From: Erythrobacter mangrovi
GTDB lineage: Bacteria; Pseudomonadota; Alphaproteobacteria; Sphingomonadales; Sphingomonadaceae
Assembly: GCF_013260645.1 (NCBI RefSeq)
Contig: NZ_CP053921.1
Coordinates: forward strand, 310,001-374,000
DNA: 64,000 bases
Direction: 5' to 3'
The translations under genes and the position numbers were made by a program. Below, piece by piece: positions 7,485-64,000 of the stretch (position 1 is its first letter; every line of letters starts with the position of its first letter). Below the pieces are notes generated by a model that had not been told where the DNA came from, made no database searches, and saw only the letters and a program-made list of their open reading frames with translations.

Positions 7485-7525
7485 GCCAGAACCAGCAGAC
7501 AGGAAGCCATTCAGGGGGCAATTCC

Positions 7526-9112
7526 ATGAACCGTCGTCTCTCCACTAAAGTGCTGCTCGCCAGCCTGGCGTTCGCGCCGCTGATCAGCATCCCGGCGAAT
7601 GTCGCAACCGCACAGTCGGTTGCCCGGCCGGCCAATGATCTCGTCCTTTCGATCGGTCGCGGTGAGCTTGTCACCGTGCCCGGTACGATGGCGGACGTCT
7701 TCGTCGCGGACGACAGCATTGCGGACGTTCAGGTCAAGTCACAGCGACAGCTATACGTCTTCGGCAAGGCCGGCGGCGAAACGACGGTCTACGCCAGCAA
7801 CGCTGCAGGCGACATCGTCTGGTCGACCAACGTTCGCGTCGGTTCGAACATCGACAGCATCGACCAGATGCTCGCGCTGGCGATGCCTGCAGCTAAAGTC
7901 GCCGTTTCCACCATGGGTACCAATACGGTGCTGCTGACGGGGACCGTCGCAGCGCCCGAAGATGCTTCGGAGGCCCAGCGCCTGGTTGAAGCATTTGTCG
8001 GTGAGGATACCAACGTGATCAGCCGTCTCAAGATGGCTACGCCGCTGCAGGTCAACCTGCAGGTGCGCTTCGCCGAGGTCAGCCGCACATTGGTACGCGA
8101 TATCGGTAGCAACCTGACGACGGTCGATAGCACTGGCGGCTTCAAGTTTGGGGTCGGTACCGGTCGCGGAGCCTTCTCCCAGGTTACTCCTTCAGGCATC
8201 GACCCAACGACAGGTCAGCGCTTTCCGGCGGGCCCAGTCGCCGTCGGTACCAACTACGAAGGCGATGGCTTCACGATCGTCGACCAAGTCAACCGAGGCA
8301 GCACTATCGCTGGTTTCGGTCGCTTTCTCGGCTTGGACTTGCTCGGTGCGCTCGACCTTGGTGAACAGGTCGGCCTCGTCACGACCCTGTCAGAGCCTAA
8401 CCTGACCGCGTTGTCGGGTGAGACAGCAGAATTCCTTGCAGGTGGTGAATTCCCGATCCCGCAAAGTCAGGGACTCGGCACGACTTCGGTCGAGTACAAG
8501 AAGTACGGTGTCAGCCTGACCTACACACCAACAGTGTTGTCGAACGGTCGCATCTCAATCCGCGTTCGTCCGGAAGTTTCCGAACTTTCGACCCGCGGCG
8601 CAGTGATCGTCAACGGCTTCCAGATCCCGGCTCTCACGACACGCCGGGCCGAGACCACGATCGAACTCGGCTCGGGTCAGAGCTTCATGATTGCCGGTCT
8701 GATGCAGAATAGTTCGCAAAACCAGCTGCAGAAGACTCCTGGGCTCGGTGATGTGCCGATCCTTGGCAACCTGTTCCGTTCGAAGAGCTACCAAAAGGGC
8801 GAGACCGAGCTTGTGATCGTCGTCACCCCTTACCTGGTCAAGCCCGTCAATGCGAACGACATTGTCCTGCCGACGGATGGTTTCCGGGCTCCCAATGAGA
8901 TCCAGAGCATCATCGGTTACATGGAGAACAACGGCAAGAGTGGCGAACAGCGCCCGTCGCCGACGATGCGCGAGAGCACCGAGCCGCCGACCCCGGGCCT
9001 GTCGCAGGCTCAGCCCGTCGGACAAGCCAATGTCGCAACCGGCCCGGCCCAGCCGCGCCGTGCCGAGGCTGATGTCGATACCGACGCCAAGCCCGGCTTC
9101 AGCTTCGAGTGA
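7526..9112 (+). CDS. cpaC: Tad pilus outer-membrane secretin CpaC (RcpA)
   Basis: Forms the outer-membrane channel of the Tad pilus. The start at 7526 is preferred over an ATG at 7481 because GGGGGC lies just upstream and it gives a standard signal peptide ending ...NVATAQS (cleavage near residue 30). The 528-residue protein has an N-terminal pilus/secretin N0-like domain (about 35-105), a BON-like region, and the secretin domain (about 250-440). The latter includes the 'VGLVTTLSEPNLTALSGETA' motif and the conserved 'LGDVPILGNLFRSK' near residue 400. The tail is Pro/Ser-rich. The stop is 14 bp before cpaD. Confidence 0.95.
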   Translation: MNRRLSTKVLLASLAFAPLISIPANVATAQSVARPANDLVLSIGRGELVTVPGTMADVFVADDSIADVQVKSQRQLYVFGKAGGETTVYASNAAGDIVWSTNVRVGSNIDSIDQMLALAMPAAKVAVSTMGTNTVLLTGTVAAPEDASEAQRLVEAFVGEDTNVISRLKMATPLQVNLQVRFAEVSRTLVRDIGSNLTTVDSTGGFKFGVGTGRGAFSQVTPSGIDPTTGQRFPAGPVAVGTNYEGDGFTIVDQVNRGSTIAGFGRFLGLDLLGALDLGEQVGLVTTLSEPNLTALSGETAEFLAGGEFPIPQSQGLGTTSVEYKKYGVSLTYTPTVLSNGRISIRVRPEVSELSTRGAVIVNGFQIPALTTRRAETTIELGSGQSFMIAGLMQNSSQNQLQKTPGLGDVPILGNLFRSKSYQKGETELVIVVTPYLVKPVNANDIVLPTDGFRAPNEIQSIIGYMENNGKSGEQRPSPTMRESTEPPTPGLSQAQPVGQANVATGPAQPRRAEADVDTDAKPGFSFE

Positions 9113-9126
9113 GAAGGACAAGAGTG

Positions 9127-9777
9127 ATGCGTAACGATCTGACCAGGAAGACGGCAGCCGCGCTGGCCCTCTCGCTCTCGCTGGGACTGGGTGCCTGCGG
9201 CGGTGTTGCCGACAACCCCTCGCTCTACAGCACCAAGCAGCCGGTGGTTGAGCGGACCCACTACACGCTCGACGTATCGACTGGCGGGGACAGCCTGCCA
9301 GTTAGCGAACAGCAGCGCCTTGTCGGTTGGTTTGACTCGATGAGCCTGCGATACGGAGATCGCATTTCGATCGACGATCCGTCCAACAACGCAAGCGTGC
9401 GCGATGCAGTGGCACGGCTGGCTGGTCGCTACGGCCTGCTGGTCAGCGAAGGCGCACCCCCGACCGCTGGTTACGTCAATCCGGGCCAGGCCCGCGTGGT
9501 CATTTCGCGCACGCTCGCTAGCGTGCCGGGTTGCCCCGACTGGTCGGCCAAAAGCGACATCAACTACGGCAACGCCACCTATCCGAACTACGGTTGTGCG
9601 GTGAACTCGAACATGGCTGCAATGGTGGCCAACCCCGAGGACCTGATCCACGGCCAGCAGGGCAGCGGCGAGACCGTGATCCTGAGTTCCAACAAGGCCA
9701 TCGATTCCTATCGTGAAGCGGCGCCCACGGGTGCCCTAGGCCTACCGGAAGTCACCACCTCAGAAGGAGGCAACTAA
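9127..9777 (+). CDS. cpaD: Tad pilus lipoprotein CpaD
   Basis: An outer-membrane lipoprotein that helps the CpaC secretin assemble. The ATG at 9127 has AAGGA 8 bases upstream and gives a lipoprotein signal peptide ending LGLGAC (Cys24), so it is preferred over the in-frame GTG at 9109. The 216-residue mature region matches the CpaD pattern: 'ERTHYTLDV', 'LSVSEQQRLVGWF'-like segments, and the conserved 'NYGNATYPNYGCAVNSNMAAMVANPEDL' region (only partly quoted by position, about residues 145-170), with two conserved cysteines. It sits between cpaC and cpaE with minimal spacing. Confidence 0.92.
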   Translation: MRNDLTRKTAAALALSLSLGLGACGGVADNPSLYSTKQPVVERTHYTLDVSTGGDSLPVSEQQRLVGWFDSMSLRYGDRISIDDPSNNASVRDAVARLAGRYGLLVSEGAPPTAGYVNPGQARVVISRTLASVPGCPDWSAKSDINYGNATYPNYGCAVNSNMAAMVANPEDLIHGQQGSGETVILSSNKAIDSYREAAPTGALGLPEVTTSEGGN

Positions 9778-9780
9778 GCC

Positions 9781-11076
9781 ATGAGCGCGTCGTTGAAATC
9801 AGCCATTTCCGGCAATCGCGATCCATTCGCCGCCTATCTGTGCGACGAAGCTGCGCTCGATGTTCTGCGCCCGGTGGTGATCGAACTCGGCTGGCAACCG
9901 GAGAAGTGCAACAAGGGTGGACTGCGCAATGCGGTCCAGTCGCTATCGGTTTCGGCTAGCCCGAACATCCTGATGGTCGACCTGTCGGAGAGCGGAGACC
10001 CTCTCAATGACATCAACGCCCTCGCCGAGGTTTGCGAGCCTGGAACGGTGGTGATCGCTGTCGGACAGGTCAATGACGTGCGCCTCTATCGCGATCTGCT
10101 TGCAAGCGGCATTCACGACTACCTGCTGAAGCCGCTCTCGCCGGCCACGCTGCGTGACTCGCTCAATCAAGCGCAGGCGATCTTCGCCGCCCCTCGTCTG
10201 AGCGATGAAGAAATGGCCAAACGCCACATATCGACTGCAGTCATCGGCACTCGCGGCGGGGTAGGTGCATCGACCTTGGTGACATCGCTTGCCTGGACCT
10301 TTGCAAGTGACCGCAAGATGTCGACGGCCATGCTCGATCTCGACGTTCATTTCGGTACCGGCGCCCTAGCGCTCGACCTTGAACCGGGCCGTGGCCTGAC
10401 TGACGCTATCGACAATCCAAGCCGTATCGACGGGCTGTTTATTGAACGCGCAATGATCCGCGCGAACGACAACCTTGCTATTCTTTCGGCCGAGGCCCCG
10501 ATCAATCAGCCGCTGATGACTGACGGGTCGGCCTTCATGCAACTGCAGGACGAGTTCCGCCACGCTTTCGAGATGACGGTCGTCGACTTGCCGCGCAATA
10601 TGATGATCAACTTCCCACACCTTCTCAATGAGGTGAATGTAGTTGTCCTGACAACCGAAATGTCGCTTGCTTCGGCCCGCGATACGATCCGGATCTTGTC
10701 GTGGCTAAAGACCAACGCTCCGCAAGCGAAGCCGTTGATCGTAGCAAACAAGGTACAGCCCGGCGTGGCGGAGATTAGCAAGGCCGACTTCGAGGCCTCG
10801 ATCGAGCGCAAGATCGACGTCACGATCCCGTTCGACCAGAAGGCTGCCGCCAATGCAGCCAAACTGGGCAAGACCTTCGTCGACGCCAACGGCGGGTCGA
10901 AGGCGGCCGCGGCCATCAAGCAGGTTGCGGCACGGATTATCGGTATCGGAAGCGAAGAGGAAGGCGGCGCGGAAGCGAGTACTGGCGCCAAGAAGTCATT
11001 GCTTGGCGGGCTCGATCTCAAGGGTCTGTTGCCGAGGAAGAAAGAGGCGGTCACTTTCGAGGCAGCCGCGGAATAA
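9781..11076 (+). CDS. cpaE: Tad pilus localisation ATPase CpaE (TadZ)
   Basis: A MinD/ParA-like ATPase that places the Tad machine, often at a pole. The 431-residue protein has an N-terminal pseudo-receiver domain (about 15-135, ending 'GIHDYLLKPLSPATL') and then a MinD fold. The fold has the CpaE-type P-loop GTRGGVGAST near residue 160, where the usual terminal GKT is altered, and 'MLDLDVHFGT' as the switch strand. 'VVDLPRNM' acts as the Walker B strand. A basic C-terminal tail may contact membrane or partners. GGAGG precedes the ATG. In most Tad loci cpaF follows at once; here tadB does, after 72 bp. Confidence 0.94.
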   Translation: MSASLKSAISGNRDPFAAYLCDEAALDVLRPVVIELGWQPEKCNKGGLRNAVQSLSVSASPNILMVDLSESGDPLNDINALAEVCEPGTVVIAVGQVNDVRLYRDLLASGIHDYLLKPLSPATLRDSLNQAQAIFAAPRLSDEEMAKRHISTAVIGTRGGVGASTLVTSLAWTFASDRKMSTAMLDLDVHFGTGALALDLEPGRGLTDAIDNPSRIDGLFIERAMIRANDNLAILSAEAPINQPLMTDGSAFMQLQDEFRHAFEMTVVDLPRNMMINFPHLLNEVNVVVLTTEMSLASARDTIRILSWLKTNAPQAKPLIVANKVQPGVAEISKADFEASIERKIDVTIPFDQKAAANAAKLGKTFVDANGGSKAAAAIKQVAARIIGIGSEEEGGAEASTGAKKSLLGGLDLKGLLPRKKEAVTFEAAAE

Positions 11077-11148
11077 TCATTCGGTTTGAATCGTCGCCGC
11101 AACCGGCGCGATCTCGCTGCGTGTCAAAGGTTAGGAACGGATTCAGCG

Positions 11149-12120
11149 ATGGATATCATTCAGCTATTGCTAGTTGTGGTCGGTGTACTGGCTTTGCTGG
11201 TGCTGGGCTACACGGCGCTGTCCGGTCCCAACGCGGCGAAGTCGGGTCAGCGCCGCCTGCAGCAGCTTCGCTATCGTCACTCCGAAAGTACCGACGCCAA
11301 GGTTGAATCGCAGCTCAAGAAGGCGCTGGCCGCCCGCAAGCCCAAGCGCTACAAGGTGGCAGGATCAGACTCTCGCCTGGACGCGCTGGCCACAAGGCTA
11401 GACCGGACAGGCAAGAACTGGACGCTTACCCAGTACGCCTACACCTCGATCGGGATCGGTTTGGGCGTCGCCCTTCTGCTATTCTTGCGTAGCGGATCAT
11501 TTCCGCTCTCGCTCGGCATCGGAACTCTGTTTGGTGCTGGCATACCGCACTTCATTGTGGGTCGTCAGATCAAGAAGCGCACGAACCAATTCAATACCAA
11601 ATTCCCGGATGGGATCGAGCTGCTCGTGCGCGGCCTGCGCTCAGGCTTGCCTGTTACAGAGACGCTGGGAGTCGTCGCACAGGAAGTCCCCGGCCCAGTG
11701 GGTCAGGAGTTCAAGAGCATCGTCGAGCGAATCAAGATCGGCAAGACGATGGAGGATGCACTCCAGGACACGGCCGATCGCCTTGGTATCGCGGAATTCA
11801 ACTTCTTCTGCATCACGCTTGCGATCCAGCGGGAGACGGGTGGCAATCTCGCCGAAACGCTGTCGAACCTTGCTGACGTTCTGCGCAAGCGCGCCCAGAT
11901 GAAACTAAAGATCAAGGCAATGAGTTCGGAATCGAAAGCCTCGGCATATATCGTTGGCGCCCTTCCCTTCATTGTCTTCTCGATGATCTTGTGGATCAAT
12001 CCGAGCTATATCGGTGGGTTCTTCGAGGATGATCGTCTCATTATTACTGGCCTCGGCGGGTTGGTGTGGATGTCGATTGGCGCCTTCATCATGGCCAAGA
12101 TGGTCAGTTTCGAAATCTGA
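11149..12120 (+). CDS. tadB: Tad inner-membrane platform protein TadB (CpaG)
   Basis: One of the two T2SSF-type membrane proteins that form the Tad platform and normally work with the CpaF ATPase. The 323-residue protein has an N-terminal membrane segment (2-22), a basic cytoplasmic stretch, two more hydrophobic segments (about 98-140) and then the T2SSF domain (about 160-285). The domain has the signature 'FPDGIELLVRGLRSGLPVTE' and 'QRETGGNLAETLSNLADVLR'. A final pair of hydrophobic segments closes the protein. The start at 11149 has AGGAACGG upstream; an in-frame start at 11086 would add an unrelated Arg-rich stretch. Confidence 0.93.
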   Translation: MDIIQLLLVVVGVLALLVLGYTALSGPNAAKSGQRRLQQLRYRHSESTDAKVESQLKKALAARKPKRYKVAGSDSRLDALATRLDRTGKNWTLTQYAYTSIGIGLGVALLLFLRSGSFPLSLGIGTLFGAGIPHFIVGRQIKKRTNQFNTKFPDGIELLVRGLRSGLPVTETLGVVAQEVPGPVGQEFKSIVERIKIGKTMEDALQDTADRLGIAEFNFFCITLAIQRETGGNLAETLSNLADVLRKRAQMKLKIKAMSSESKASAYIVGALPFIVFSMILWINPSYIGGFFEDDRLIITGLGGLVWMSIGAFIMAKMVSFEI

Positions 12121-12140
12121 GCAAGGAAGAGTAAAGACCA

Positions 12141-13139
12141 ATGGATCCCTCGACCGGCCCCAAGCTTCTTGGCTTCGACGTCATCCTGATCGGCTCAATC
12201 CTTGCCGGGATCGCTGCCTTGGCAGTGCTCGTCGCAATCTATTCGGCTGTCACCATCAAGGACCCGATGGCCAAACGCGTGCGCGCACTGGAAGGGCGAC
12301 GTGAGGAATTGAAGCTTGGCCTGGTGACCTCGAACGCAAAGAAGCGCCAGAGCCTGGTCCGCAAGACAGACAAGACCGAAAAGATCAGGGACACGCTCGA
12401 CAGCATGAAGGTGCTGCAGCAGAGCCAGATCGAGGTCGTACAGCAAAAGCTCGCCCATGCGGGTATACGCAACAAGGAACTCGCAGTGCTGATAATCGGC
12501 CTGCGCATGGTCCTGCCGATTGTGCTCGGCGGCACTGCCTTTATCCTGCTCTATGTCGCGGAAATCTATCCCGACTGGCAGATCAAGCGGGTGCTGGCGC
12601 TCGCAGCCGCACTGTTCATCGGTTACAAGGGGCCCGAGCTTTATCTCGGCAACATCGCCAAGAAGCGTTCGGATGCCATCCGGAAAGGCTTGCCCGATGC
12701 GCTCGACCTCCTCGTGATTTGCGCGGAGGCTGGTCTTACTGTCGATGCTGCGTTCAATCGCGTCGCCAAGGAACTAGGGCGCGCTTATCCCGAACTGGGT
12801 GACGAGTTCACCTTAACCGCAATCGAGCTTTCGTTCCTCAACGAACGTCGCATGGCCTTCAACAACCTCGCTTACCGCGTCGACCTCGAAGCAGTGAAAG
12901 GGGTGGTCACGACCATGGTCCAGACCGAACGCTATGGTACGCCGCTAGCGTCGGCGCTACGCGTTCTATCCGCCGAGTTCCGCAACGAACGCATGATGCG
13001 TGCGGAAGAAAAGGCTGCGCGCCTTCCCGCGATCATGACGGTGCCGCTGATCCTGTTCATCCTTCCGGTGTTGTTCATCGTCATTCTCGGCCCGGCGGCC
13101 TGTTCAATCTCTGACGCCTTCAGTGGCGGGATCGGCTAG
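12141..13139 (+). CDS. tadC: Tad inner-membrane platform protein TadC (CpaH)
   Basis: Second T2SSF-type platform protein of the Tad pilus. The 332-residue protein has an N-terminal membrane helix (about 12-34), a charged cytoplasmic region with coiled-coil character (about 40-115), two membrane segments (about 118-165) and the T2SSF domain. The domain has 'LPDALDLLVICAEAGLTVDA' and the TadC-typical 'NLAYRVDLEAVKGVVTTMVQ' around residue 240. It closes with 'MTVPLILFILPVLFIVILGP'. It follows tadB by 20 bp and is the last gene of the locus before a hairpin and a convergent MarR gene. Confidence 0.93.
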   Translation: MDPSTGPKLLGFDVILIGSILAGIAALAVLVAIYSAVTIKDPMAKRVRALEGRREELKLGLVTSNAKKRQSLVRKTDKTEKIRDTLDSMKVLQQSQIEVVQQKLAHAGIRNKELAVLIIGLRMVLPIVLGGTAFILLYVAEIYPDWQIKRVLALAAALFIGYKGPELYLGNIAKKRSDAIRKGLPDALDLLVICAEAGLTVDAAFNRVAKELGRAYPELGDEFTLTAIELSFLNERRMAFNNLAYRVDLEAVKGVVTTMVQTERYGTPLASALRVLSAEFRNERMMRAEEKAARLPAIMTVPLILFILPVLFIVILGPAACSISDAFSGGIG

Positions 13140-13169
13140 CCAGTCCGAATCTAAAGGATTGGGGCGCAA

Positions 13170-13202
13170 GAAAGCCTGGGCGACCTAGTCGGCCAGGCTT
13201 TC
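13170..13202. terminator. Hairpin between convergent tadC and marR
   Basis: GAAAGCCTGG and CCAGGCTTTC form a perfect 10-bp stem. An inner CGAC/GTCG helix sits behind one mismatch, with a 3-base loop. The arm overlaps the marR stop codon. The T-tracts are short on both sides (TTTCC on plus, TTTCTTG on minus), so efficiency is uncertain. Its position between convergent genes favours a shared terminator. Confidence 0.55.
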
Positions 13203-13667
13203 CGCGTCGAAATCACCAGCATTCTTGCGGATGCGGTGCAGCATGTCGTGGAGCGCCTCGCGCTCCTCAGCGCTCAGTACGGCAAACATTTCCGCTTCGA
13301 TCTTCAGCGCCAGAGGCATCACCCCGCCATGCACGGCCCAGCCCTCCTCTGTGAGTTCGAGCAGGTGTGACCGTCCGTCGCGGGTGTTCGGGGTTCGGCG
13401 GACCAGGCCGCGATCTTCCAGTCGTTTGCACGCACGATTGACCGGCACCTTGTCCATCAATGTCAGCTGCGACAACTCTCGCTGGGTCTGGGCCCCACTG
13501 TCGCCGAGCACCGCCATGATGCGCCATTCGGTTGTTTTAAGCCCGAAACGCTGGCGATATTGCTGCGCGATCCGGGTCGACACCGCATTGGACGCAACCG
13601 AGAGTTGGTATGGCAGGAAATCGGCGAGGCGCGGAGCGGGTTGGCGTTTGGACATTTCGCAATTCAT
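13185..13667 (-). CDS. MarR family transcriptional regulator
   Basis: A 160-residue winged-helix DNA-binding protein, a normal MarR length. The core 'TTEWRIMAVLGDSGAQTQRE' (residues 45-64) starts the DNA-binding domain. It is followed by the recognition helix region 'LTLMDKVPVNRACKRLEDRG' and the wing 'RTPNTRDGRSHLLELTEEG', all in MarR order. N- and C-terminal helices for dimerisation are present. No clear ribosome site marks the start; the ATG at 13655 is an alternative. It lies upstream of nothing on its own strand but converges with the Tad locus, and the crotonase gene ends 55 bp upstream on the same strand. Its effector and targets are unknown; the neighbouring fatty-acid genes are one guess. 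Confidence 0.88.
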   Translation of the reverse strand: MNCEMSKRQPAPRLADFLPYQLSVASNAVSTRIAQQYRQRFGLKTTEWRIMAVLGDSGAQTQRELSQLTLMDKVPVNRACKRLEDRGLVRRTPNTRDGRSHLLELTEEGWAVHGGVMPLALKIEAEMFAVLSAEEREALHDMLHRIRKNAGDFDAESLAD

Positions 13668-13722
13668 AAGTTCAACAGCCCGCTTGGCAAGGCGGTTGCC
13701 TGTGTGACCATCTCATGTGCAA

Positions 13723-14595
13723 CTATTCGAAGCCCGGTTCGTCCCACCACGGATAGAAATCGGGCATGTTGGCACTGACCGTGTCGGGATAGGCAGGCGT
13801 TCGCTTCTCGAGGAAACTGGCCACGCCCTCCCGAGCATCAGCGCTGCGGCTGAGGCGATAGATTGCACGGCTATCGATGCGATGCGCCATCATTGGGTGC
13901 TCCAGCGGTGACAGGCGCCAGAGCATCGCCCGCGTCATCGCGACCGAGACCGCGGAGGTGTTGTCGGCGATCTCGCGCGCAATACCAATTGCCGCCTGCA
14001 TCAGTTCGCCCTGTGGGTGTACCGACCGCACCAGACCGCGTTCCTTCGCTTCAGCAGCATCGAAGATCCGGCCGGTCATGCACCATTCGAGCGCCGTTTG
14101 CAGCCCAACCAGGCGCGGCAGGAACCAGCTCGATGCCGCTTCGGGCGTAATACCGCGGCGGGCGAACACGAAACCGAAACGCGCATTGTCCGAACACAGG
14201 CGGATGTCGAAGGGCAGTTGCATCGTTGCCCCAACGCCCACCGCCACGCCGTTGCAGGCCCCGATCAGCGGCTTCTGCGAGTTGAACAGTCGCAGCGTCA
14301 ACCGCCCGCCCCCGTCGCGCACACGTTCGTCCGACAGGTCTTCAACGGGATTGGGATCGGAGAAAACATGACCGCCACCTTCAGGGGTGAGATCCGCACC
14401 CGCGCAAAAGGCGCGATCGCCCGAACCCGTCACGATCACCGCGCGGACACTGTCATCGGCGTCGGTCACGTCCATCGCGTGGATGAATTCGTCCATCATC
14501 ACCCGAGTGAAGGCATTCATCTTTTCAGGCCGGTTGAGCGTGACGGTCGCGATGCCGTCGGCGATGTCGAGCTTGATCTGCGTGTAGGAGCTCAT
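13723..14595 (-). CDS. Enoyl-CoA hydratase / crotonase family protein
   Basis: A crotonase-fold enzyme, probably hydrating 2-enoyl-CoA in fatty-acid or related acyl-CoA breakdown. The ATG at 14595 is chosen because it is preceded by GGGGGAA and gives the normal N-terminus MSSYTQIKLDIADG. A frame open to 14685 adds an atypical stretch. The 290-residue protein has the first oxyanion-hole segment 'GDRAFCAGADL' (residues 59-69) and the second 'ACNGVAVGVGATMQLPFDIR' near residue 120, then 'SWFLPRLVG'. The exact substrate cannot be fixed: the usual Glu at the active site is replaced by other residues in many subfamilies, and I cannot align it here. It is separated from the SDR gene by a terminator. 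Confidence 0.85.
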   Translation of the reverse strand: MSSYTQIKLDIADGIATVTLNRPEKMNAFTRVMMDEFIHAMDVTDADDSVRAVIVTGSGDRAFCAGADLTPEGGGHVFSDPNPVEDLSDERVRDGGGRLTLRLFNSQKPLIGACNGVAVGVGATMQLPFDIRLCSDNARFGFVFARRGITPEAASSWFLPRLVGLQTALEWCMTGRIFDAAEAKERGLVRSVHPQGELMQAAIGIAREIADNTSAVSVAMTRAMLWRLSPLEHPMMAHRIDSRAIYRLSRSADAREGVASFLEKRTPAYPDTVSANMPDFYPWWDEPGFE

Positions 14596-14652
14596 TTGGA
14601 TTTCCCCCGGGTCAGTCCGTCTGGTTGGAACACGTGGAACACGGTCCTCGAA

Positions 14653-14707
14653 TATAAAAGAAAGCGCCCCCGATTGCAGCGTCACTGACGGGCAAGCGGG
14701 GGCGCTT
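14653..14707 (-). terminator. Intrinsic terminator after the thiolase-SDR pair
   Basis: A perfect 11-bp inverted repeat, AAGCGCCCCCG (14662-14672) and CGGGGGCGCTT (14697-14707), with a 24-base spacer. Read on the minus strand the stem is followed by TTTCTTTTATA. That fits termination or attenuation after the SDR gene and before the crotonase gene. Confidence 0.75.
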
Positions 14708-14767
14708 CGGATCGCTCATAACGGCAAGGCTATTCTTCGCCCCGCCGGTAGGAAAGAATTGGTCGGA

Positions 14768-15553
14768 TCACCGCGGTGCCATCCGGATGGCACCGTCGAG
14801 ACGCACGTCCTCGCCGTTGAAATAGCCGGTTTCGATCATGCACATGGCAAGCTTGGCATATTCGGTCGGCTGGCCGAGGCGCTTGGGGAACGGGACCGAA
14901 GCGGCCAGCGCGTCCTTCACGTTCTGCGGAGCGGCCTGCAGCAGCGGGGTGTCGAAAATGCCCGGCAGGATCGTGTTGACGCGGATGCCTTCGTTCATGA
15001 GATCGCGCGCGATCGGTAGAGTCATGCCGATGACACCGGCCTTAGACGCCGAATAGGCGGCCTGGCCGATTTGACCGTCCTCGCCCGCTACCGAAGCGGT
15101 GTTCACGATCGCGCCACGCTCACCATTCTCGTCAAGCGGGTCGAGTGTGAGCATGCCGGCCGCCGACTTGGCGATGCAGCGAAAGGTGCCGATCAGATTG
15201 ACCTGGATGACGAAGTCAAAGGCGGAGATCGGGAAATGCTTGATCGAGCCGTCTTCCTTCGAGCGGCTGGCGGTCTTGATCGCATTGCCGATGCCCGCGC
15301 AGTTGACGAGGATGCGTTCCTGCCCATGCGCGGCGCGGGCCTTGGCAAAGCCCGCATCGACGTCTTCGTCGCTGGTCACATTGACCTTGCAGAATACCCC
15401 GCCGATCTCGGCGGCGAGCGCCTCGCCCTTCTCTTCGTTCATGTCGAAGATCGCGACCTTGGCGCCCTTGGCGGCAAGCGCGCGAGCGGTCGCCGCGCCG
15501 AGGCCAGAGGCACCGCCGGTCACGACGGCGGGAGTGTTTGCACCAACTTCCAT
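14768..15553 (-). CDS. SDR-family dehydrogenase, 3-hydroxyacyl-CoA dehydrogenase-like
   Basis: A 261-residue classical short-chain dehydrogenase. The NAD-binding motif TGGASGLG is at residues 12-19. An acidic residue at the end of strand 2 (IFDMNE, Asp37) argues for NAD(H) rather than NADP(H). The NCAG motif is at 84-87, with catalytic Ser154, Tyr167 and Lys171 (YSASK). The overall pattern, including the insertion around 95-110, resembles the 17-beta-HSD10 / type II 3-hydroxyacyl-CoA dehydrogenase group. Placement 27 bp after the thiolase gene supports a beta-oxidation role. The precise substrate is inferred. Confidence 0.88.
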   Translation of the reverse strand: MEVGANTPAVVTGGASGLGAATARALAAKGAKVAIFDMNEEKGEALAAEIGGVFCKVNVTSDEDVDAGFAKARAAHGQERILVNCAGIGNAIKTASRSKEDGSIKHFPISAFDFVIQVNLIGTFRCIAKSAAGMLTLDPLDENGERGAIVNTASVAGEDGQIGQAAYSASKAGVIGMTLPIARDLMNEGIRVNTILPGIFDTPLLQAAPQNVKDALAASVPFPKRLGQPTEYAKLAMCMIETGYFNGEDVRLDGAIRMAPR

Positions 15554-20234: not shown

Positions 20235-20256
20235 GCGTTACCCACATTGAATTGGG

Positions 20257-20285
20257 AATGGCGGGCCGTCAGGTCCGCCATTTTC
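20257..20285 (+). terminator. Intrinsic terminator / attenuator after the first TonB receptor gene
   Basis: AATGGCGGGCC and GGTCCGCCATT form an 11-bp stem with one G-U pair and a 4-base loop (GTCA), followed by TTTTC. It sits 23 bp after the receptor stop and 31 bp before the oxygenase GTG. It can cut the abundant receptor transcript while letting some read-through into the two enzyme genes. Confidence 0.8.
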
Positions 20286-20315
20286 ATTTGGGCTTTCGGT
20301 GAGGAAATTAGACCC

Positions 20316-21836
20316 GTGACCAAGGATGAAGCGGAAGCGCTCGTCAGGGCACTCGCAACCAACAATGCGCGGCACCTATTCACTCGCGGAATCGACCTCA
20401 TCAAGGCCGACTATCCCGAAATACTACTCCCTGTTGCGAAGACCGCAACGCGACAGTTTCCCGATGATCCGCGAGTTCACCAGCTCTTGGGGCTGGCAGC
20501 GCGCGCAGTCGGCGAGAGCCATGAAGCACTGGAGGCGTTCTCACGGGCCGCACAGTTGGCTCCAAACGACGCTTTGATCGCTCACTCTCATGCCCGTGTT
20601 GCGCTCGAAGCCGGCCGTCCCTCTTCTGGCCTGTTTGAAAGGGCGCGCCTTCTCAGCCCGAACGACGGAGCCGTCTTATTGGGACGTTCCGCTGCACGAG
20701 TTCAGGAGGGCAATGCAACTCTTGCGATTGAGGAGCTGGAAGATATCCTTCAATCCAATCCATTGTGGACCGACGGACATCGCGCCGCTGCCCAGATCAG
20801 GGCGCAGGAGGGGCTCGAGTTGGACGCAACATTACGCGCTGCAATCGCCCTGCATCCTTCGCAACCTGACCTCCGTCGACTTCACATCTCACTCCTTTTG
20901 GAGGCGAGGGACTTGCCTGCTGCAGATCGAGCGGCAATTGACGCGTTCAAAATGCTCGGTGATCAGCCGTGGCTTACTTTTCTTGCCGCGCATATCGCTT
21001 CTGAACGAGGCGACCTCATCGCGGCCGACCGACTGTTCTCCAAAACACCGGTGCCATCCACGCCAGAGGACGTCTCACTTTTGGCACGTCATGCAATTCG
21101 CGCGCGACGACCAGAAGTTGCTGTTGGTCTGCTTGAGCAATGGATTGAACAGGATCGCAATCATCTCCTGTGGCCGTATCTTTCCTTAGCTTGGCGAATG
21201 ACTGGGGATAGGCGCTGGCACTGGCTTGAGGGTGATGAACGCTTGGTCGGAGTGTATGACCTAGCAGAGCGCTTCGATAACCTCGATGGACTAGCTGAGC
21301 ATCTCCGCGCGCTCCATGTTGCGCGTGAGGCACCGCTCGATCAGTCTGTCCGTGGGGGAACCCAGACGGACGGCAACCTGCTCTTGCGGGACGAACCGCA
21401 AATTCGTGCTTTACGCGCACTGCTCCTCGAGACGGTCAGCCGCCATGTAGCCCAATTGCCGGATCATGCTGAAGGACACCCCACCCTGCCCCGGCAGCGC
21501 GAATGTCAACGCATTTCAGGATCGTGGTCAGTTCGCCTAAAGGACTCCGGCTTCCATAGCGACCACGTCCATAGTCAGGGGTGGCTCAGTTCGGCACTAT
21601 ATGTTTCGCTTCCAGATTCGCTTTCCAGCCCAGGTAAAGATTCATCACACGAGGGATGGCTTTCTCTCGGCGAATGTCGTGACCTGTTGCCCGAGCTCGA
21701 GCCAATCCGACTGATCGAGCCGCGACCTGGCCGACTCGTGCTGTTTCCTTCGACTATGTGGCATGGTACGCGCGCCTTCCCTGCCGGTGAACGCATGACC
21801 GTCGCATTCGATATTGCCTTACCACGACAAAGTTGA
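20316..21836 (+). CDS. TPR protein with C-terminal 2OG-Fe(II) oxygenase domain
   Basis: A 506-residue protein: the N-terminal two thirds are TPR-like helical repeats (for example 'DDPRVHQLLGLAARAVGESH' near residue 50). The C-terminal about 150 residues resemble the putative 2OG-Fe(II) oxygenase family PF13759. Candidate iron ligands are His417/His419 in FHSDHVHSQGW and His483 in MWHGTRAF, and a 2OG-binding Arg493 lies in GERMTVAFD. GTG 20316 is chosen because GAGGA precedes it and an upstream frame to 20247 would begin inside the terminator. GC is visibly lower than in the receptor genes. It is followed after 5 bp by the sulfotransferase gene. It probably hydroxylates a protein or peptide; the substrate is unknown. 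Confidence 0.8.
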   Translation: MTKDEAEALVRALATNNARHLFTRGIDLIKADYPEILLPVAKTATRQFPDDPRVHQLLGLAARAVGESHEALEAFSRAAQLAPNDALIAHSHARVALEAGRPSSGLFERARLLSPNDGAVLLGRSAARVQEGNATLAIEELEDILQSNPLWTDGHRAAAQIRAQEGLELDATLRAAIALHPSQPDLRRLHISLLLEARDLPAADRAAIDAFKMLGDQPWLTFLAAHIASERGDLIAADRLFSKTPVPSTPEDVSLLARHAIRARRPEVAVGLLEQWIEQDRNHLLWPYLSLAWRMTGDRRWHWLEGDERLVGVYDLAERFDNLDGLAEHLRALHVAREAPLDQSVRGGTQTDGNLLLRDEPQIRALRALLLETVSRHVAQLPDHAEGHPTLPRQRECQRISGSWSVRLKDSGFHSDHVHSQGWLSSALYVSLPDSLSSPGKDSSHEGWLSLGECRDLLPELEPIRLIEPRPGRLVLFPSTMWHGTRAFPAGERMTVAFDIALPRQS

Positions 21837-21841
21837 GCTGA

Positions 21842-23731
21842 ATGACACACCCTTCCGCAATCCCCTCGCACCTTTCGCCGCAGGTACTGGAAGCGATGTC
21901 GCGCTTCAGGATGGATGACAATCATGGAGCGCTTTCCATTGCCGAGGCGGCGCTCGTCGAGGCGGCTGACAAGGCACCGCTGATGGCGGTCGCAAGTCTC
22001 GCTGCCTTGCGGCTCGGTCTGCCCCAACGGGCCATTCCACATCTCGAGTCATTAATTGCACTTAATCCAGGCGATCGGGCATCGCGAGCGAACTTGGCCA
22101 ACGCCTATGTCCAGGTGGGTAAGCACGAACTGGCCCTGGAACTGGTGCGGGGAGAGACCGCTCCAGGGCTAGCGAGAATCGAAGGCTTCATCCTGCAAGA
22201 AGCGAATGATTTTGCAGGAGCAGTCGCTGCGTATCGCAGAGCCATTGCTGGAGATCCGAACGATCTGTCTTCATGGAACAACTTGGGGAACGTTCTTTCC
22301 GCGAGCGGCGACGTTGACGGAGCAATCGAAGCCCTTGAGAGGGCCATATCGATTGCTCCGGGCGAACTGCGGATATATTTGAATCTAGCGGAAGTCCTCA
22401 AAGAGGCAGATCGACCGGAAGCACGACTCAGAGTATTGACGGATGCGCGAAAGCTCGCGCCTGAAGACCAGCAGGTATTGGTCGAACTTGGGATGACCTA
22501 TGCGCGCGTCGACGATCTAGACTCCGCCATCTCGACTATGAAACACGCGATAAATCTGTCTCCCGGTTTTTGCGACGCGCATATCGAGCTGGGTATGATT
22601 TATGAAAACTTGAATCGTGTTGAGGAACTGACAGAACTAGTCGGGAGCGTGGACCAGACAAAGGCACCGGCGGAATTCGCATTCCTGCTGGCCTGGCAGG
22701 CACGGAGAGAAGGACGTTTCGAAGACGCTGCCGAACTGGCGTCCAGGATACCGGAGACGGTTCATCCTCGGCGCCGATTCCACCTGATCGGTGGGATCGA
22801 AGATCGCCGTGGCAATGCTAACGAGGCCTTTGCAGCATTCGAGCAAATGAACCGCGAAGCCATCGATTCTTCGCCGCCGCCTATTGGTCCAACCTACCGC
22901 GAAGAGGTAACGAGCGACCTAGCCAAGTGGACTGATGAATGGGCCCGGGAATGGCCGCCATTCGAGCCCAGTGATCAATATCGAGATCCCGTTTTCCTAG
23001 TTGGTTTTCCGCGCTCGGGCACGACACTACTCGATACAATGCTCATGGGTCAGGGTGAACTTTCGGTGCTCGAAGAGCGACCAATGATGGCACGCACGAT
23101 CAGGCAGTTGGGAGAGAACGAAGATCTACCGAGTTTAACCCCTGAACGAGTTCATGAGTTGCGCGAAATGTATTTCACCTACGCTCGCGAATTCGGCTGG
23201 GATGGCACCAGATGGCTGGTCGACAAGCACCCGCTCAATATGGAGCGCGTGCCTACAATCCACCGCCTGTTTCCCAATGCTCGGGTAATACTGGCCGAGC
23301 GGCATCCTTACGACGTTGTGCTCAGCTGTTTCATGGCAAATTTCCAACTCAACCTTGCGATGCGCAGCTTTGCTGACCTTGAAGAAGCAGCGCGGACCTA
23401 CGATGCGGTATGGCGGGCTTGGCAGCGCGGGATCGAACTATTCCCGGTCGACTGGCGCGCGGTGCGATACGAGCGATTAGTGGCCGACCCGCGAGCCGAA
23501 CTCGAACCGTTGGTATCCTGGCTCGGCCTCGGATGGAATGACCGCCTGCTCGACCATACAACAACGGCGCGCGAACGTGGGCGCGTGCGGACTGCGAGCT
23601 ACTCGCAGATCGGTGAATCGCTTTACATCCGGGCGACCGATCGTTGGAAACGCTACGCCGAGCACCTCAAGCCCGTAATCCCTATTCTAAGGCCGTGGGC
23701 AGAGAAAATGGACTATCTTCAAGAACGCTAA
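21842..23731 (+). CDS. TPR-containing sulfotransferase
   Basis: A 629-residue two-part protein. Residues about 10-300 are tandem TPR repeats (clear units near 145-180 and 210-245). Residues about 383-620 are a PAPS-dependent sulfotransferase domain. The 5'-phosphosulfate loop is 'FLVGFPRSGTTLLDTM' (FPRSGTT at 389-395), and the 3'-phosphate-binding segment is 'ERHPYDVVLSCF' (486-497). A catalytic-type 'VDKHPLN' follows strand 3. The same architecture is seen in many alphaproteobacterial TPR sulfotransferases, some near TonB receptors. No signal peptide is seen, so it acts in the cytoplasm. GC drops to about 47% in some 60-base stretches. Substrate unknown. Confidence 0.88.
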   Translation: MTHPSAIPSHLSPQVLEAMSRFRMDDNHGALSIAEAALVEAADKAPLMAVASLAALRLGLPQRAIPHLESLIALNPGDRASRANLANAYVQVGKHELALELVRGETAPGLARIEGFILQEANDFAGAVAAYRRAIAGDPNDLSSWNNLGNVLSASGDVDGAIEALERAISIAPGELRIYLNLAEVLKEADRPEARLRVLTDARKLAPEDQQVLVELGMTYARVDDLDSAISTMKHAINLSPGFCDAHIELGMIYENLNRVEELTELVGSVDQTKAPAEFAFLLAWQARREGRFEDAAELASRIPETVHPRRRFHLIGGIEDRRGNANEAFAAFEQMNREAIDSSPPPIGPTYREEVTSDLAKWTDEWAREWPPFEPSDQYRDPVFLVGFPRSGTTLLDTMLMGQGELSVLEERPMMARTIRQLGENEDLPSLTPERVHELREMYFTYAREFGWDGTRWLVDKHPLNMERVPTIHRLFPNARVILAERHPYDVVLSCFMANFQLNLAMRSFADLEEAARTYDAVWRAWQRGIELFPVDWRAVRYERLVADPRAELEPLVSWLGLGWNDRLLDHTTTARERGRVRTASYSQIGESLYIRATDRWKRYAEHLKPVIPILRPWAEKMDYLQER

Positions 23732-23780
23732 AGCCGCAGGCGATCATCGTGCTGGCAGACTTTGCTGCCAACTATTAACT

Positions 23781-23805
23781 GTGGCGATGGCCCGACAATC
23801 GCCAC
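23781..23805 (+). terminator. Possible terminator hairpin after the sulfotransferase gene
   Basis: GTGGCGAT (23781-23788) and ATCGCCAC (23798-23805) pair perfectly around a 9-base loop. No T-tract follows, so this is a weak candidate. It lies between the sulfotransferase stop and the convergent small exported protein gene. Confidence 0.35.
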
Positions 23806-23866
23806 GGCGCGAGATACTCTATGCAACCGAGCGTCAAGAACTCGATTGTCTTAACAGAACACAAGG

Positions 23867-24166
23867 TCAGCCACCGCCGGCGGTCTCGCGAGAGTTTTGA
23901 ATGCGCTCTATGTCTCTGCGATCCTGGGCCCGATCCGCTGCCCACTGGCGCCGTGTTTGGCAACGTTTGGCAGTAGCAAGGCGCGAGCCAACGATCCGTT
24001 CGGTTCTGCACACTACCTTGTCGAGTTTCGAATCTTCTTTCTCGCCCTCGACCACAATCTCCTTGTCTACGGCTGCCGTCTCATCTGTGGCAGGTTGCGA
24101 TTCTTGCGCGATGACCGGAGCTGCAACAACAAGGATGGCGGCAGCCGAAGTAGCGAGAAACCTCAT
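23867..24166 (-). CDS. Small exported protein with a conserved cysteine pair
   Basis: A 99-residue protein with a Sec signal peptide ending 'VAAPVIAQ' (cleavage near residue 21), an acidic linker and a basic C-terminal half. The pattern 'VCRTERIVGSRLATAKRCQTRRQW' (residues 51-74, given in part) with Cys52 and Cys69 is a motif I recall from many short periplasmic proteins of sphingomonads. The two cysteines probably form a disulfide. The start at 24166 is chosen for the signal peptide; a frame to 24235 adds an unlikely N-terminus. It is divergent from the exported protein at 24319 and lies between two TonB receptor genes. Function unknown. Confidence 0.7.
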   Translation of the reverse strand: MRFLATSAAAILVVAAPVIAQESQPATDETAAVDKEIVVEGEKEDSKLDKVVCRTERIVGSRLATAKRCQTRRQWAADRAQDRRDIERIQNSRETAGGG

Positions 24167-24318
24167 GTCGAATCCAATATCCAGTTTTATTCCAAAGGCT
24201 AAGTGTATCTTTTCTCGATCAGGAAGGCTATCCAAAATCGGTACTATCTACGGACTGGATTTCGCTGGATAAGCGGATATCGTTACACCGAAACAAGAAT
24301 GCCAAGCAGGAGAGAGTT

Positions 24319-24867
24319 GTGATTTCCAGGGCCAAAGTGGGCAAGGTCGCTGTGGTGGCCTTTGTCATCATGACCGCCGCATACAGTGCGTCGGCCGAAG
24401 ACGAGCCGGCCGAAAACTCCTATCTCGCTGCACTCAAGGCCTGCCAACAGGAGCAAGATTCGGCCGCAAGACTCGCCTGCTTCGATGCTGCTGCGGCGAC
24501 GATCGTTGGCGCAAGCGAGACCGGTGATCTCCGATTGGTAGACCGCGAGGAGGTGCGAAAAACACGCCGGAATTTCTTCGGCCTATCTCTCCCTGATTTC
24601 GGAATATTCGGCAAACGCGACAAAGACGGTGAAGATCAGGACGAGATCCAGGAACTCGAAACCAAGATCGTGTCCGTTTCAGGATCGCACGGAAGCGGCT
24701 ATGTTATTCGTACTACCGAGGGCGCCTTATGGCGGATTGATGTCGTTCCCAGGCGTCTGCTCGAGCCCAAATCCGGGGATACGCTGCTTATCAAGAATGC
24801 CGCTCTCTCATCATATTTCTTACGGATCAATGGCCAAGGCGGAGTAAGGGGCACGCGGATTCGCTAG
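24319..24867 (+). CDS. Exported protein of unknown function
   Basis: A 182-residue protein with a GTG start and a strong AGGAGAGAG ribosome site. The signal peptide ends 'YSASAED' (cleavage near residue 26). Next comes a short helical segment 'LAALKACQQEQDSAARLACF' with two cysteines, typical of a helical hairpin held by a disulfide. A charged linker and a small beta-rich domain (about 115-182, 'GYVIRTTEGALWRID') follow. I do not recognise a named family. It lies between the sulfotransferase region and the second TonB receptor, with 234 bp of non-coding DNA after it, and has somewhat lower GC than the receptors. Confidence 0.72.
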   Translation: MISRAKVGKVAVVAFVIMTAAYSASAEDEPAENSYLAALKACQQEQDSAARLACFDAAAATIVGASETGDLRLVDREEVRKTRRNFFGLSLPDFGIFGKRDKDGEDQDEIQELETKIVSVSGSHGSGYVIRTTEGALWRIDVVPRRLLEPKSGDTLLIKNAALSSYFLRINGQGGVRGTRIR

Positions 24868-60916: not shown

Positions 60917-60992
60917 CCTTCGACAAGCTCAGGATCAGCAGGCTAGATTCCGGGGCAAGCACAAGACCCGTTCAGCCTGAGCTTGTCGAAGG
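60917..60992. repeat. Long inverted repeat, REP-like
   Basis: CCTTCGACAAGCTCAGG (60917-60933) and CCTGAGCTTGTCGAAGG (60976-60992) are perfect 17-bp inverted repeats with a 42-bp spacer. I recall this sequence as a dispersed REP-like element in sphingomonad and other alphaproteobacterial genomes. It may also act as the valS transcript end. Confidence 0.75.
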
Positions 60993-61154
60993 CCACGCGC
61001 CGACGGTGCACGGCCGACGGTGCCCAGTGGTTTCCTACTCGCCCGGCGCGTGTCATGACGGGCCTATTGGTGCCACCATCACTGCAAATGGGGGCCGAAA
61101 AGCACCCTAACTGTCGCCTTTAGGAGGTCAAGTGACTGGAAATAGATGGTTTTT

Positions 61155-61208: not shown

Positions 61209-61943
61209 ATGCCGCTAGTCCTCGCCACGCAGGCGCCGGGCGAGCCGGAAATTTTCGCCAGCGTTCAAGGCGAGGGCCCCAGTGCGGGGATGCCCTGCAC
61301 CTTCCTGCGCCTGTCGCGCTGCAATCTGGCGTGCCGGTGGTGCGATACCGCCTACACCTGGCGCTTCGAAGGCGACAATCGCCCGCACCGCGATGACGTG
61401 GACTTCGAACGCAAGACCAACCAGCTGAGCCTCGACGAGGAAGAGGTGGCGCGCCGTATTCTCGCGCTCGGGCAGAAGCGCCTTGTGATCACGGGTGGTG
61501 AGCCGCTGCTGCAGGCCCCCGCCCTGGCCCGCCTGCTCGACCTGCTGCCCGACATGCATGTGGAAGTCGAAACCAACGGGACGACCAAGGCCTCGACCGC
61601 GCTCGATATCCGTATCGACCAATTCAACGTCAGCCCCAAGCTGTCGCATAGCGGCAACCCGGCAGAACTGGCGCTGCTACCCGAACGGCTCGACGCCTAC
61701 GCCACCGATCCGCGCGCATGGTTCAAATTCGTGATCGCGCAGCCCGAAGACGTCGATGAGGTCCTGGCACTGCACGAACGCTACCGCTTCCGTCCGGACC
61801 ACGTCTTCCTGATGCCCGAAGGCACCGACAGCGAGACACTGCGCACCCGCGAGAAGTGGCTGGCACCGCTATGCGTCGAGCATGGCTTCCGCCTGTCCGA
61901 CCGCCTGCATATCCACCTGTTCGGCGATACGCGCGGGACGTGA
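61209..61943 (+). CDS. queE: 7-carboxy-7-deazaguanine synthase
   Basis: A radical SAM enzyme that makes the 7-deazaguanine core for queuosine. The 244-residue protein has the SAM cluster cysteines in CNLACRWC (Cys38, Cys42, Cys45; CxxxCxxC). The substrate-binding segment 'FASVQGEGPSAGMPCTFLRL' is at the start, 'VITGGEPLLQ' lies near 95, and the family end 'RLSDRLHIHLFGDTRGT' is present. No other queuosine gene lies in the window. Confidence 0.93.
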   Translation: MPLVLATQAPGEPEIFASVQGEGPSAGMPCTFLRLSRCNLACRWCDTAYTWRFEGDNRPHRDDVDFERKTNQLSLDEEEVARRILALGQKRLVITGGEPLLQAPALARLLDLLPDMHVEVETNGTTKASTALDIRIDQFNVSPKLSHSGNPAELALLPERLDAYATDPRAWFKFVIAQPEDVDEVLALHERYRFRPDHVFLMPEGTDSETLRTREKWLAPLCVEHGFRLSDRLHIHLFGDTRGT

Positions 61944-61950
61944 TCCACTC

Positions 61951-61993
61951 CAAAAAGAGAGGCTCCCACACGCTGGACGAAACGTGTGGGAGC
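61951..61993 (-). terminator. Intrinsic terminator of the RNA ligase gene
   Basis: GCTCCCACACG (61962-61972) and CGTGTGGGAGC (61983-61993) pair perfectly over 11 bp. On the minus strand the stem is followed by CTCTCTTTTTG, a T-tract after a few bases. It lies 11 bp past the RNA ligase stop and also ends the convergent queE region. Confidence 0.75.
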
Positions 61994-62004
61994 AACGCTG
62001 AAAG

Positions 62005-62547
62005 CTACCAACGCAGCCCGAAGTCACGTCGACGAAGCTTCGCCATTCTGCCGTCTGGATGATGGAACACGAGGCCCTCATGCTCCGGGTGCGCAACAAG
62101 CCAATCCTTCAGAGCATCGAAATTGCGCTCCACTTTTACAGGGTGACTACCATGGGGCAGCAATACGTGTCTCTCAAACTCATAGCGCCCTCCTTGAATC
62201 TTCGGGCCTAAGAGTTCGTATGTGCCGTCCGGTTCATTGCCAGTGAAGGCTTCCAGATGATATTGGCTTCCTGGGTCGTCCTCCCGCACAGGGACCCAAC
62301 CGGGGAAATGGCCCGTAACTGGATCAGGTGCGTCAGCAGCCGCGATGAAGCCGTGAGGCTTTGATCGACCCAGTTTCAAGTTATAGCGCTGGTACAATTT
62401 GCCGCCTCTGACCAGACAGGCCGTACCATCGAACTTGATTGTAGCTACACCTTCGCCAGCGAGCACCCACTTTTCGCGGCACTCGCGCGTAATGGCATGG
62501 GGTCGCGAGGTGCGATCCATGACGAAAACAGTCGGAATCTTCTTCAT
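62005..62547 (-). CDS. RNA ligase of the RLIG1 (C12orf29) type
   Basis: A 180-residue nucleotidyltransferase-fold protein. Motif I is KFDG (Lys38, the adenylate-bearing Lys). Then come 'LYQRYNLKLGR', GHFPGWVPV (79-87), TYELLGPKI (109-117), LLPHG, motif IV EGLVFHHPDG (157-166) and motif V MAKLRRRDFGLRW with Lys170. From memory this order and the GHxPGWVPV and EGxVxH motifs match human RLIG1/C12orf29, a 5'-3' RNA ligase. AAAGGGAG lies before the ATG. GC is about 50% against over 60% nearby, a sign of transfer. Activity is inferred, and the protein is shorter than human RLIG1. Confidence 0.82.
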   Translation of the reverse strand: MKKIPTVFVMDRTSRPHAITRECREKWVLAGEGVATIKFDGTACLVRGGKLYQRYNLKLGRSKPHGFIAAADAPDPVTGHFPGWVPVREDDPGSQYHLEAFTGNEPDGTYELLGPKIQGGRYEFERHVLLPHGSHPVKVERNFDALKDWLVAHPEHEGLVFHHPDGRMAKLRRRDFGLRW

Positions 62548-62616
62548 TTGGCTCCCTTTCCACGAGAATTCGAATCCAACTCGGGGAAACCAAACAAAGC
62601 GCCGTAGCGCAGGCGT

Positions 62617-62645
62617 TCTGTTCTCACAGCACGAAGAAAAGTCAA
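62617..62645 (-). promoter_or_regulatory. Possible promoter of the RNA ligase gene
   Basis: On the minus strand TTGACT (62645-62640) is followed, after 17 bases, by AACAGA (62622-62617). The -35 is good and the -10 is poor. It lies in the 109-bp gap between the ATPase stop and the ligase start, so the ligase may have its own promoter. Confidence 0.3.
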
Positions 62646-62656
62646 TCGGTTAGCAT

Positions 62657-64000
62657 TTACCCTTGCGAGCGCCAGCGCTGGACGGTGCGGTTGACGATGT
62701 CTTCCTCGCCGCCGGTCCGGTTCCACAAATCAACAAAGCTCGGGTCTTCCGATGCCGGGCGCTTGGCCTCTTCGAGATTGTCGAAGCTGACGCGAATGGG
62801 GATGGCGACACCCTCACCGCAGATGATGCACTCGCGATTGCGCAGCGCCGGGATGCTGTCGAGGAAACCGCGCGCACCTTCTGGCATGGCGGCCTTCACG
62901 AAGGCCTGGTCACGATCGTTGTTGAGGCGCATCGAGATGATCGTACCGCACTGTGACAGCACGCCTTCGGCAAGGTCAGACGGGCGCTGCGTGATCAGGC
63001 CAAGCGAGATCCCGTACTTACGACCTTCCTTGGCGATACGGCTGAGGATCTTGCCCACCGAGTTGCCGTCGGCATTCTTCTCGCTGGGAACGTAACGGTG
63101 TGCCTCTTCGCAGACCAGCAGGATCGGGTTTGTACGTTCCTCGCGGCCCCAGATCGCGAAGTCGAAGACCAGGCGGCTGAGCACGGCCACCACCGTCGCG
63201 GTGATGTCCGACGGCACGCCAGACACGTCGATGATCGAAATCGGCTTGCCGTTGGAGGGCATGCGGAAGACCTTGCCGATGAAGTCGGTCATCGTGTCCG
63301 CCACCAGCATGCCGGAGAACATGAACTGGTAGCGCGGATCGCCCTTCAACTCGTCGAGCTTGTTCTTGATCCGCATGTAGGGCGCCGAACTGGTCGCCTT
63401 GTCGAGCTTGCCCATCTGGTTCTGGATCTCGTTCGAGAGGTCCGAAAGCAGGTAAGGAATCGGGCTGTCGACGGTGATCTTGCCCATGGTCTCGGCCAAT
63501 CGGCTCTTGGTGCGCGAGGCGAGCAGGCACTTGGCAAGGATATCGGCGTCGACCTGACGTTCGTTGCCGTGACTGGTCAGCAGCACTTCGCAGTGCTCCT
63601 CGAAGTTCATGATCCAGTACGGCATCTGCAGGTTCGAGACGTCGAGGATCACGCCCGTCTGGCGGAAGGCTGCGGAATATTCACCGTGCGGGTCGATCAT
63701 CACGATGTGACCTTCAGGCGCGGCCTGGCAGATGCGGTGCAGGATCAGCGCGGCACTGGTCGACTTGCCGGTACCAGTCGAGCCGAGCAGCGCGAAGTGC
63801 TTGCCCAGCATGGCATCGATGTAGATACCGGCGCGAATGTCCTTGGTCGGGTAGACCTTGCCGATTGTGACGGCACTGCGACCGTCGCTGGCGTAGACCT
63901 GCTTGAGGTCGGGGGTCGACGCAGGGAAGACCAGCGCGCCCGGAACCGGATAGCGGGTCACACCGCGGCGAAAACCATGCAGTCGGCCCGTGAGCTTCTC
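62657..64000 (-). CDS. HerA/DUF87 ATP-binding protein, 5' end outside the window
   Basis: A P-loop ATPase of the HerA-like DUF87 group, with the reading frame open to the right edge. Counting from the GTG at 63961, Walker A GSTGTGKST starts at residue 60 (Lys66), and Walker B is 'NPILLVCEEAHRYVP' near 285. 'GRKYGISLGLITQRPSDLAE' carries sensor and Arg-finger residues. 13 more codons (EKLTGRLHGFRRG) are visible upstream and continue, so the N-terminus lies beyond 64000 and 434 residues is a minimum. HerA proteins move DNA with the NurA nuclease; no nurA is in view. Confidence 0.88.
   Translation of the reverse strand, partial: EKLTGRLHGFRRGVTRYPVPGALVFPASTPDLKQVYASDGRSAVTIGKVYPTKDIRAGIYIDAMLGKHFALLGSTGTGKSTSAALILHRICQAAPEGHIVMIDPHGEYSAAFRQTGVILDVSNLQMPYWIMNFEEHCEVLLTSHGNERQVDADILAKCLLASRTKSRLAETMGKITVDSPIPYLLSDLSNEIQNQMGKLDKATSSAPYMRIKNKLDELKGDPRYQFMFSGMLVADTMTDFIGKVFRMPSNGKPISIIDVSGVPSDITATVVAVLSRLVFDFAIWGREERTNPILLVCEEAHRYVPSEKNADGNSVGKILSRIAKEGRKYGISLGLITQRPSDLAEGVLSQCGTIISMRLNNDRDQAFVKAAMPEGARGFLDSIPALRNRECIICGEGVAIPIRVSFDNLEEAKRPASEDPSFVDLWNRTGGEEDIVNRTVQRWRSQG

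Follow-up and report, generated by a model that had tools for sequence, protein, structure and literature searches.

The window analysed here is a 64,000-nucleotide stretch of the Erythrobacter mangrovi chromosome (contig NZ_CP053921.1, positions 310,001 to 374,000). At window positions 62005-62547 it holds a gene for a 180-residue protein that is likely a minimal stand-alone 5'-3' RNA ligase of the RLIG1 (C12orf29) type, gained recently as a lone gene whose source was probably a phage. The family, the model fold, the catalytic residues, the sporadic occurrence and the insertion site are directly supported by the analyses below.

Family assignment and catalytic core

The protein scores 40.3 bits against the Pfam model PF17720 (RLIG1; curated cut-off, 25), carries all seven catalytic residues and is predicted to adopt the RLIG1 fold, its model resembling RLIG1 more closely than it does other ligases; judged from its sequence, it is a member of the RLIG1 family. 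A first-pass annotation, made from the sequence alone, had proposed this kinship from the motifs, and the profile search and structure comparison that it suggested have both borne it out. No better match to another ligase or capping family was found: at E values up to 1, Pfam gave no match to any Rnl1 family and neither Pfam nor NCBIfam gave one to any DNA ligase family, in searches whose HMMER filters can lose weak matches, and no NCBIfam model matched the protein. It is highly improbable that the protein is instead another nucleotidyltransferase (a DNA ligase, a T4 Rnl1/Rnl2-type ligase or a capping enzyme) resembling RLIG1 only in superfamily-wide motifs.

The open reading frame (ORF) and the motifs quoted in that annotation stand as given, to which the minus strand, left unstated there, is to be added; the plus-strand reading of the same stretch contains two stops. 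The motifs lie at residues 38-41 (KFDG), 79-87 (GHFPGWVPV), 109-117 (TYELLGPKI) and 157-166 (EGLVFHHPDG), and its "terminal Lys motif" is K170 of motif V. The motif residues are K38 and D40 (I), R54 (Ia), E111 (III), H132 (IIIa), E157 (IV) and K170 (V). They align to K73, D75, R89, E174, H195, E240 and K253 of Yasminevirus RLIG1, the residues named as catalytic for that enzyme (PMC11494293), the chain numbering in our alignments being one higher than in that paper. In an alignment of 143 rows (134 distinct, every row collected as a relative), K38, E111, E157 and K170 are identical in 143/143 rows, D40 in 142/143, and R54 and H132 in 141/143, a conservation far beyond chance. It is through the Pfam model and the Yasminevirus structure that the protein is tied to human RLIG1.

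Compared with known ligases, the protein is short. The solved Yasminevirus structures (9c6l and 9c6m) have a chain of 277 residues and the PF17720 model of RLIG1/C12orf29 (HsRnl) has 324 positions; the stretch from the GHxxGW motif to motif III is much shorter in the window ligase. With T4 Rnl1 the identity is 12%, and all 180 residues of the model align inside residues 73-250 of the 375-residue chain, so the second, RNA-binding domain of T4 Rnl1 is absent and the protein consists of the nucleotidyltransferase core only. RtcB has the sealing of RNA breaks in common with this enzyme but differs in family and chemistry, and the RtcB profile gave no match to the window protein.

The RLIG1 homologues of bacteria and phages, phrog_14301 among them, form the window ligase's own group; they share its length class and match over the full length, and examples are a Brevundimonas "RNA ligase 1 family protein" and Mycobacterium phage Collard gp74, an "RNA ligase". 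Identity to these homologues does not exceed 66%, and the window copy differs in being a lone gene of the chromosome, flanked by queE and herA. Bacterial and phage RLIG1 versions are already known. Joining of 5'-phosphate to 3'-OH RNA ends is reported for several RLIG1 homologues, with "R. bacterium" and "C. phage" homologues in the plasmid list of the same source (PMC11494293), and 390 bacterial DUF5565 neighbourhoods have been described as enriched in RNA functions, with tRNA genes in more than 20% (PMC10364804). Titles and abstracts under the family's names yielded no literature on bacterial members besides these two papers; work on human RLIG1 includes PMC9931718, PMC13244148 and PMC13247085.

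Distribution and insertion site

A homologue search that admits proteins of 0.55-1.75 times the query length, and which longer relatives would escape, returned 3713 of 3748 candidates at E values up to 1e-3. PF17720 is carried by 118 of the 120 best homologues listed, the window protein counted among them, and the lengths of these 120 are 171-237 residues (median 181). Within this length-limited search, then, the compact bacterial form is ordinary, not special as first supposed. Occurrence is sporadic: a relative is encoded in 33/86 candidate stretches of a genome collection, from several bacterial phyla and from archaeal contigs of metagenome-assembled genomes (MAGs), and in 418/462 viral-contig stretches (the best 80 of the 418 were kept). 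The 50,697 phage records gave 20 matches, among them duplicate entries for one phage, and the 72,556 plasmid records gave 12. Two of the MAG contigs are titled Thermoplasmata archaeon (L010:4379-4924 and L031:8001-8546; attribution by title). Four of the plasmid matches (H23-H26) are Vibrio replicons of 0.88-0.94 Mb, each with one gene that is annotated as DUF5565 family protein and is 38% identical to the query.

The locus in the window comprises the following features.

62005-62547, minus strand: gene of the predicted RLIG1-type RNA ligase, 180 residues; ATG at 62547, stop ending at 62005
61944-62656, no strand: extra stretch holding the ligase gene, between queE and herA, supported by gap length and GC content (GC)
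61993-61962, minus strand: terminator-like hairpin of 13 pairs with a T-rich tail, directly 3' of the ligase gene, from a pattern scan
61209-61943, plus strand: QueE (7-carboxy-7-deazaguanine synthase), flanking gene, convergent with the ligase gene
62657-63961, minus strand: HerA-type ATPase, flanking gene, a core gene of the genus outside the ligase system

Both flanking genes were located in 30 same-genus loci, the window's included. The queE-herA gap measures 719 bp between protein-match ends in the window and 2-461 bp in 29/29 other loci. The host genome has one copy of the ligase gene; the gene occurs in 1/61 relatives and 1/396 genomes of the order, each time the window's own, and none was found in the 36 other genomes of the genus. 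Its GC of 0.558 is the second lowest among 50 mechanically chosen window ORFs (median 0.628) and its third-position GC the fourth lowest; along the sequence, GC is about 0.54-0.57 within the gene versus about 0.60-0.68 in its surroundings. The ligase thus seems to have entered this genome recently, as a lone gene. The suggestion that it could represent an ancestral form finds nothing in its favour, the gene being the sole copy in 396 genomes of the order and sited between genes that adjoin in relatives.

The frame is intact and its ATG is preceded, at a distance of 4 nt, by a GGGAG box. In the hairpin scan, one hairpin was observed versus a mean of 0.8 in shuffled sequences, weak evidence taken alone. 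No direct repeats of at least 12 bp, as expected of mobile-element ends, were found in 61850-62760, and a tRNA-linked insertion was rejected, no tRNA having been found in the window.

As the ligase gene lies on the same strand as herA, 109 bp downstream of it, and PADLOC HerA profiles match this neighbour, a joint defence or DNA-processing unit might be considered. This is extremely improbable: a herA match is present in 37/37 genus genomes, including the 36 in which the ligase was not found, herA adjoins queE without the ligase in 29/29 loci, the ligase has no PADLOC match, and the neighbours differ at the other cellular loci examined. A defence unit with HerA was therefore rejected.

Other sequence elements were seen in the region and the window. 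Between valS and queE (60919-60994), an inverted pair, TTCGACAAGCTCAGG ... CTGAGCTTGTCGAAGG, was noticed by eye and looks like a dispersed palindromic repeat. A GC-rich element, GAGGACGAACCCGCGGAGGCGGGTTCG, with its variants, was seen by eye in both orientations in at least 10 of the 29 queE-herA gaps (L036-L064) and resembles a family of short repeats scattered through genomes of the genus. A run of low-GC ORFs at 20247-24867 (GC 0.527-0.581 versus the window ORF median of 0.628), is possibly another acquired stretch; two of the ORFs have no Pfam match, and the others encode a TPR sulfotransferase and a TPR protein that also has a 2OG-Fe(II) oxygenase domain.

Phage relatives and neighbouring genes

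A phage source of the window ligase is likely. In a careful tree of 143 rows, none of them an animal sequence and with bootstrap values not settled, the window ligase falls in a seven-row clade (support 98/88), its companions being a 310-kb viral contig, L092, and five database proteins, of which P0008 belongs to a MAG with the name Acidobacteria. The enclosing clade of 31 rows (98/92) contains two more large viral contigs, L065 (578 kb) and L066 (500 kb), and one cellular row, Brevundimonas. In L065, genes for a phage-type primase and a DnaB helicase adjoin the ligase; in L066, its neighbours have a strong match to a phage family of unknown function and a weak match to a regulator. The viral-contig loci are of phage type, their neighbour clusters including terminase, portal, integrase and capsid. 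The end branch of the window ligase is long (0.74 versus a median of 0.37).

Neighbouring genes were clustered from 2383 predicted ORFs at 113 loci by means of a crude longest-ORF caller, which picked an antisense frame over the ligase in 12 loci (cluster 2). The largest real neighbour cluster beyond the ligase comprises at most 12/113 loci. Cluster representatives are terminase (12 loci), portal (10), C5 cytosine methylase (8), integrase (6, one cellular), DnaB helicase (5) and capsid (5), and two of the eight tested have no Pfam match. A conserved RNA-repair partner was rejected, the recurring neighbours tested being phage genes. Ten neighbours were inspected at six cellular loci: four have no match, and six have Pfam matches unrelated to RNA repair (sulfatase, sulfotransferase, beta-propeller, GDPD, isopropylmalate/homocitrate-synthase type and DUF481).

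Several findings weigh against a phage-derived RNA-repair ligase. L092 sits on a long branch, and a quick tree sets it outside the window's six-row group; the nearest relatives (at most 66% identity) are mostly without an assigned source. Cellular and viral rows interleave, well-supported branches forcing at least 7-8 label changes, and the direction of transfer is therefore unreadable from the tree. No recurrent kinase, phosphatase or nuclease partner appeared among the representatives tested from the 113 loci, and tRNA genes lie near the ligase in 1/33 cellular and 6/60 viral loci scanned (L092 included), versus the more than 20% of neighbourhoods given in PMC10364804.

Possible role and significance

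RNA-ligase activity, like the phage source and the biological role, is what we infer for this protein. Homology to the Yasminevirus and human enzymes suggests that Lys38 would attack ATP and become adenylated, the AMP would then be transferred to an RNA 5'-phosphate, and a neighbouring RNA 3'-OH would displace AMP, thereby sealing the break. The likely job would be the resealing of cleaved tRNA or other RNA under attack or stress.

Searches of the host genome for healing and sealing enzymes covered RtcB, PNK3P and AAA_33. No RtcB was found and PNK3P gave no match; AAA_33, a broad kinase family, gave seven matches, four of them over the cut-off. The ligase may thus be alone in sealing RNA in this cell, or it may stand idle. 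That it functions in phages but is an idle passenger in this bacterium, heading for loss, is rather unlikely. Its absence from all the other genomes of the order that were searched, the long end branch and the fact that the usual RNA-repair partners were not seen would fit such a passenger, but nothing has been lost of the frame, the ribosome-binding box or the seven catalytic residues, and the two missing Pfam families leave room for other healing enzymes; AAA_33 has its four matches over the cut-off. Moreover, some nucleases leave 5'-phosphate and 3'-OH ends, for which no healing enzyme is required. A working ligase remains our preferred reading. A wider scheme, in which compact RLIG1 ligases of phage origin travel singly, settle between the genes of bacterial chromosomes, protect host tRNA and serve an RtcB-less cell as its sole RNA-sealing enzyme, limited to 5'-phosphate/3'-OH breaks, is distinctly doubtful.

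On contig L092, genes for RLIG1, a cytidylyltransferase-Nudix protein and a NAMPT-type protein share a stretch of about 8 kb (7165-15485) with 11 tRNA genes. The ligase adjoins the cytidylyltransferase-Nudix protein and the nicotinamide phosphoribosyltransferase, on this one contig; two of the tRNA genes are within about 1 kb upstream of the ligase and nine start from 5 kb downstream. For jumbo phages, such RNA ligases, tRNAs and NAD+ systems are described as counters to host attack (PMC7824862), and the L092 group is a possible counter-defence cluster.

The window ligase is an acquired, ordinary member of its family, neither a new kind of enzyme nor evidence for an ancestral form, and alone it leaves existing knowledge of RLIG1 unchanged. 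Its 180-residue catalytic core would make a convenient model for RLIG1 catalysis. The locus is also a clean case of single-gene RLIG1 gain in a bacterium without detected RtcB, the gene-free site being visible in relatives, and therefore a simple knock-out could probe the function of RLIG1 in bacteria.
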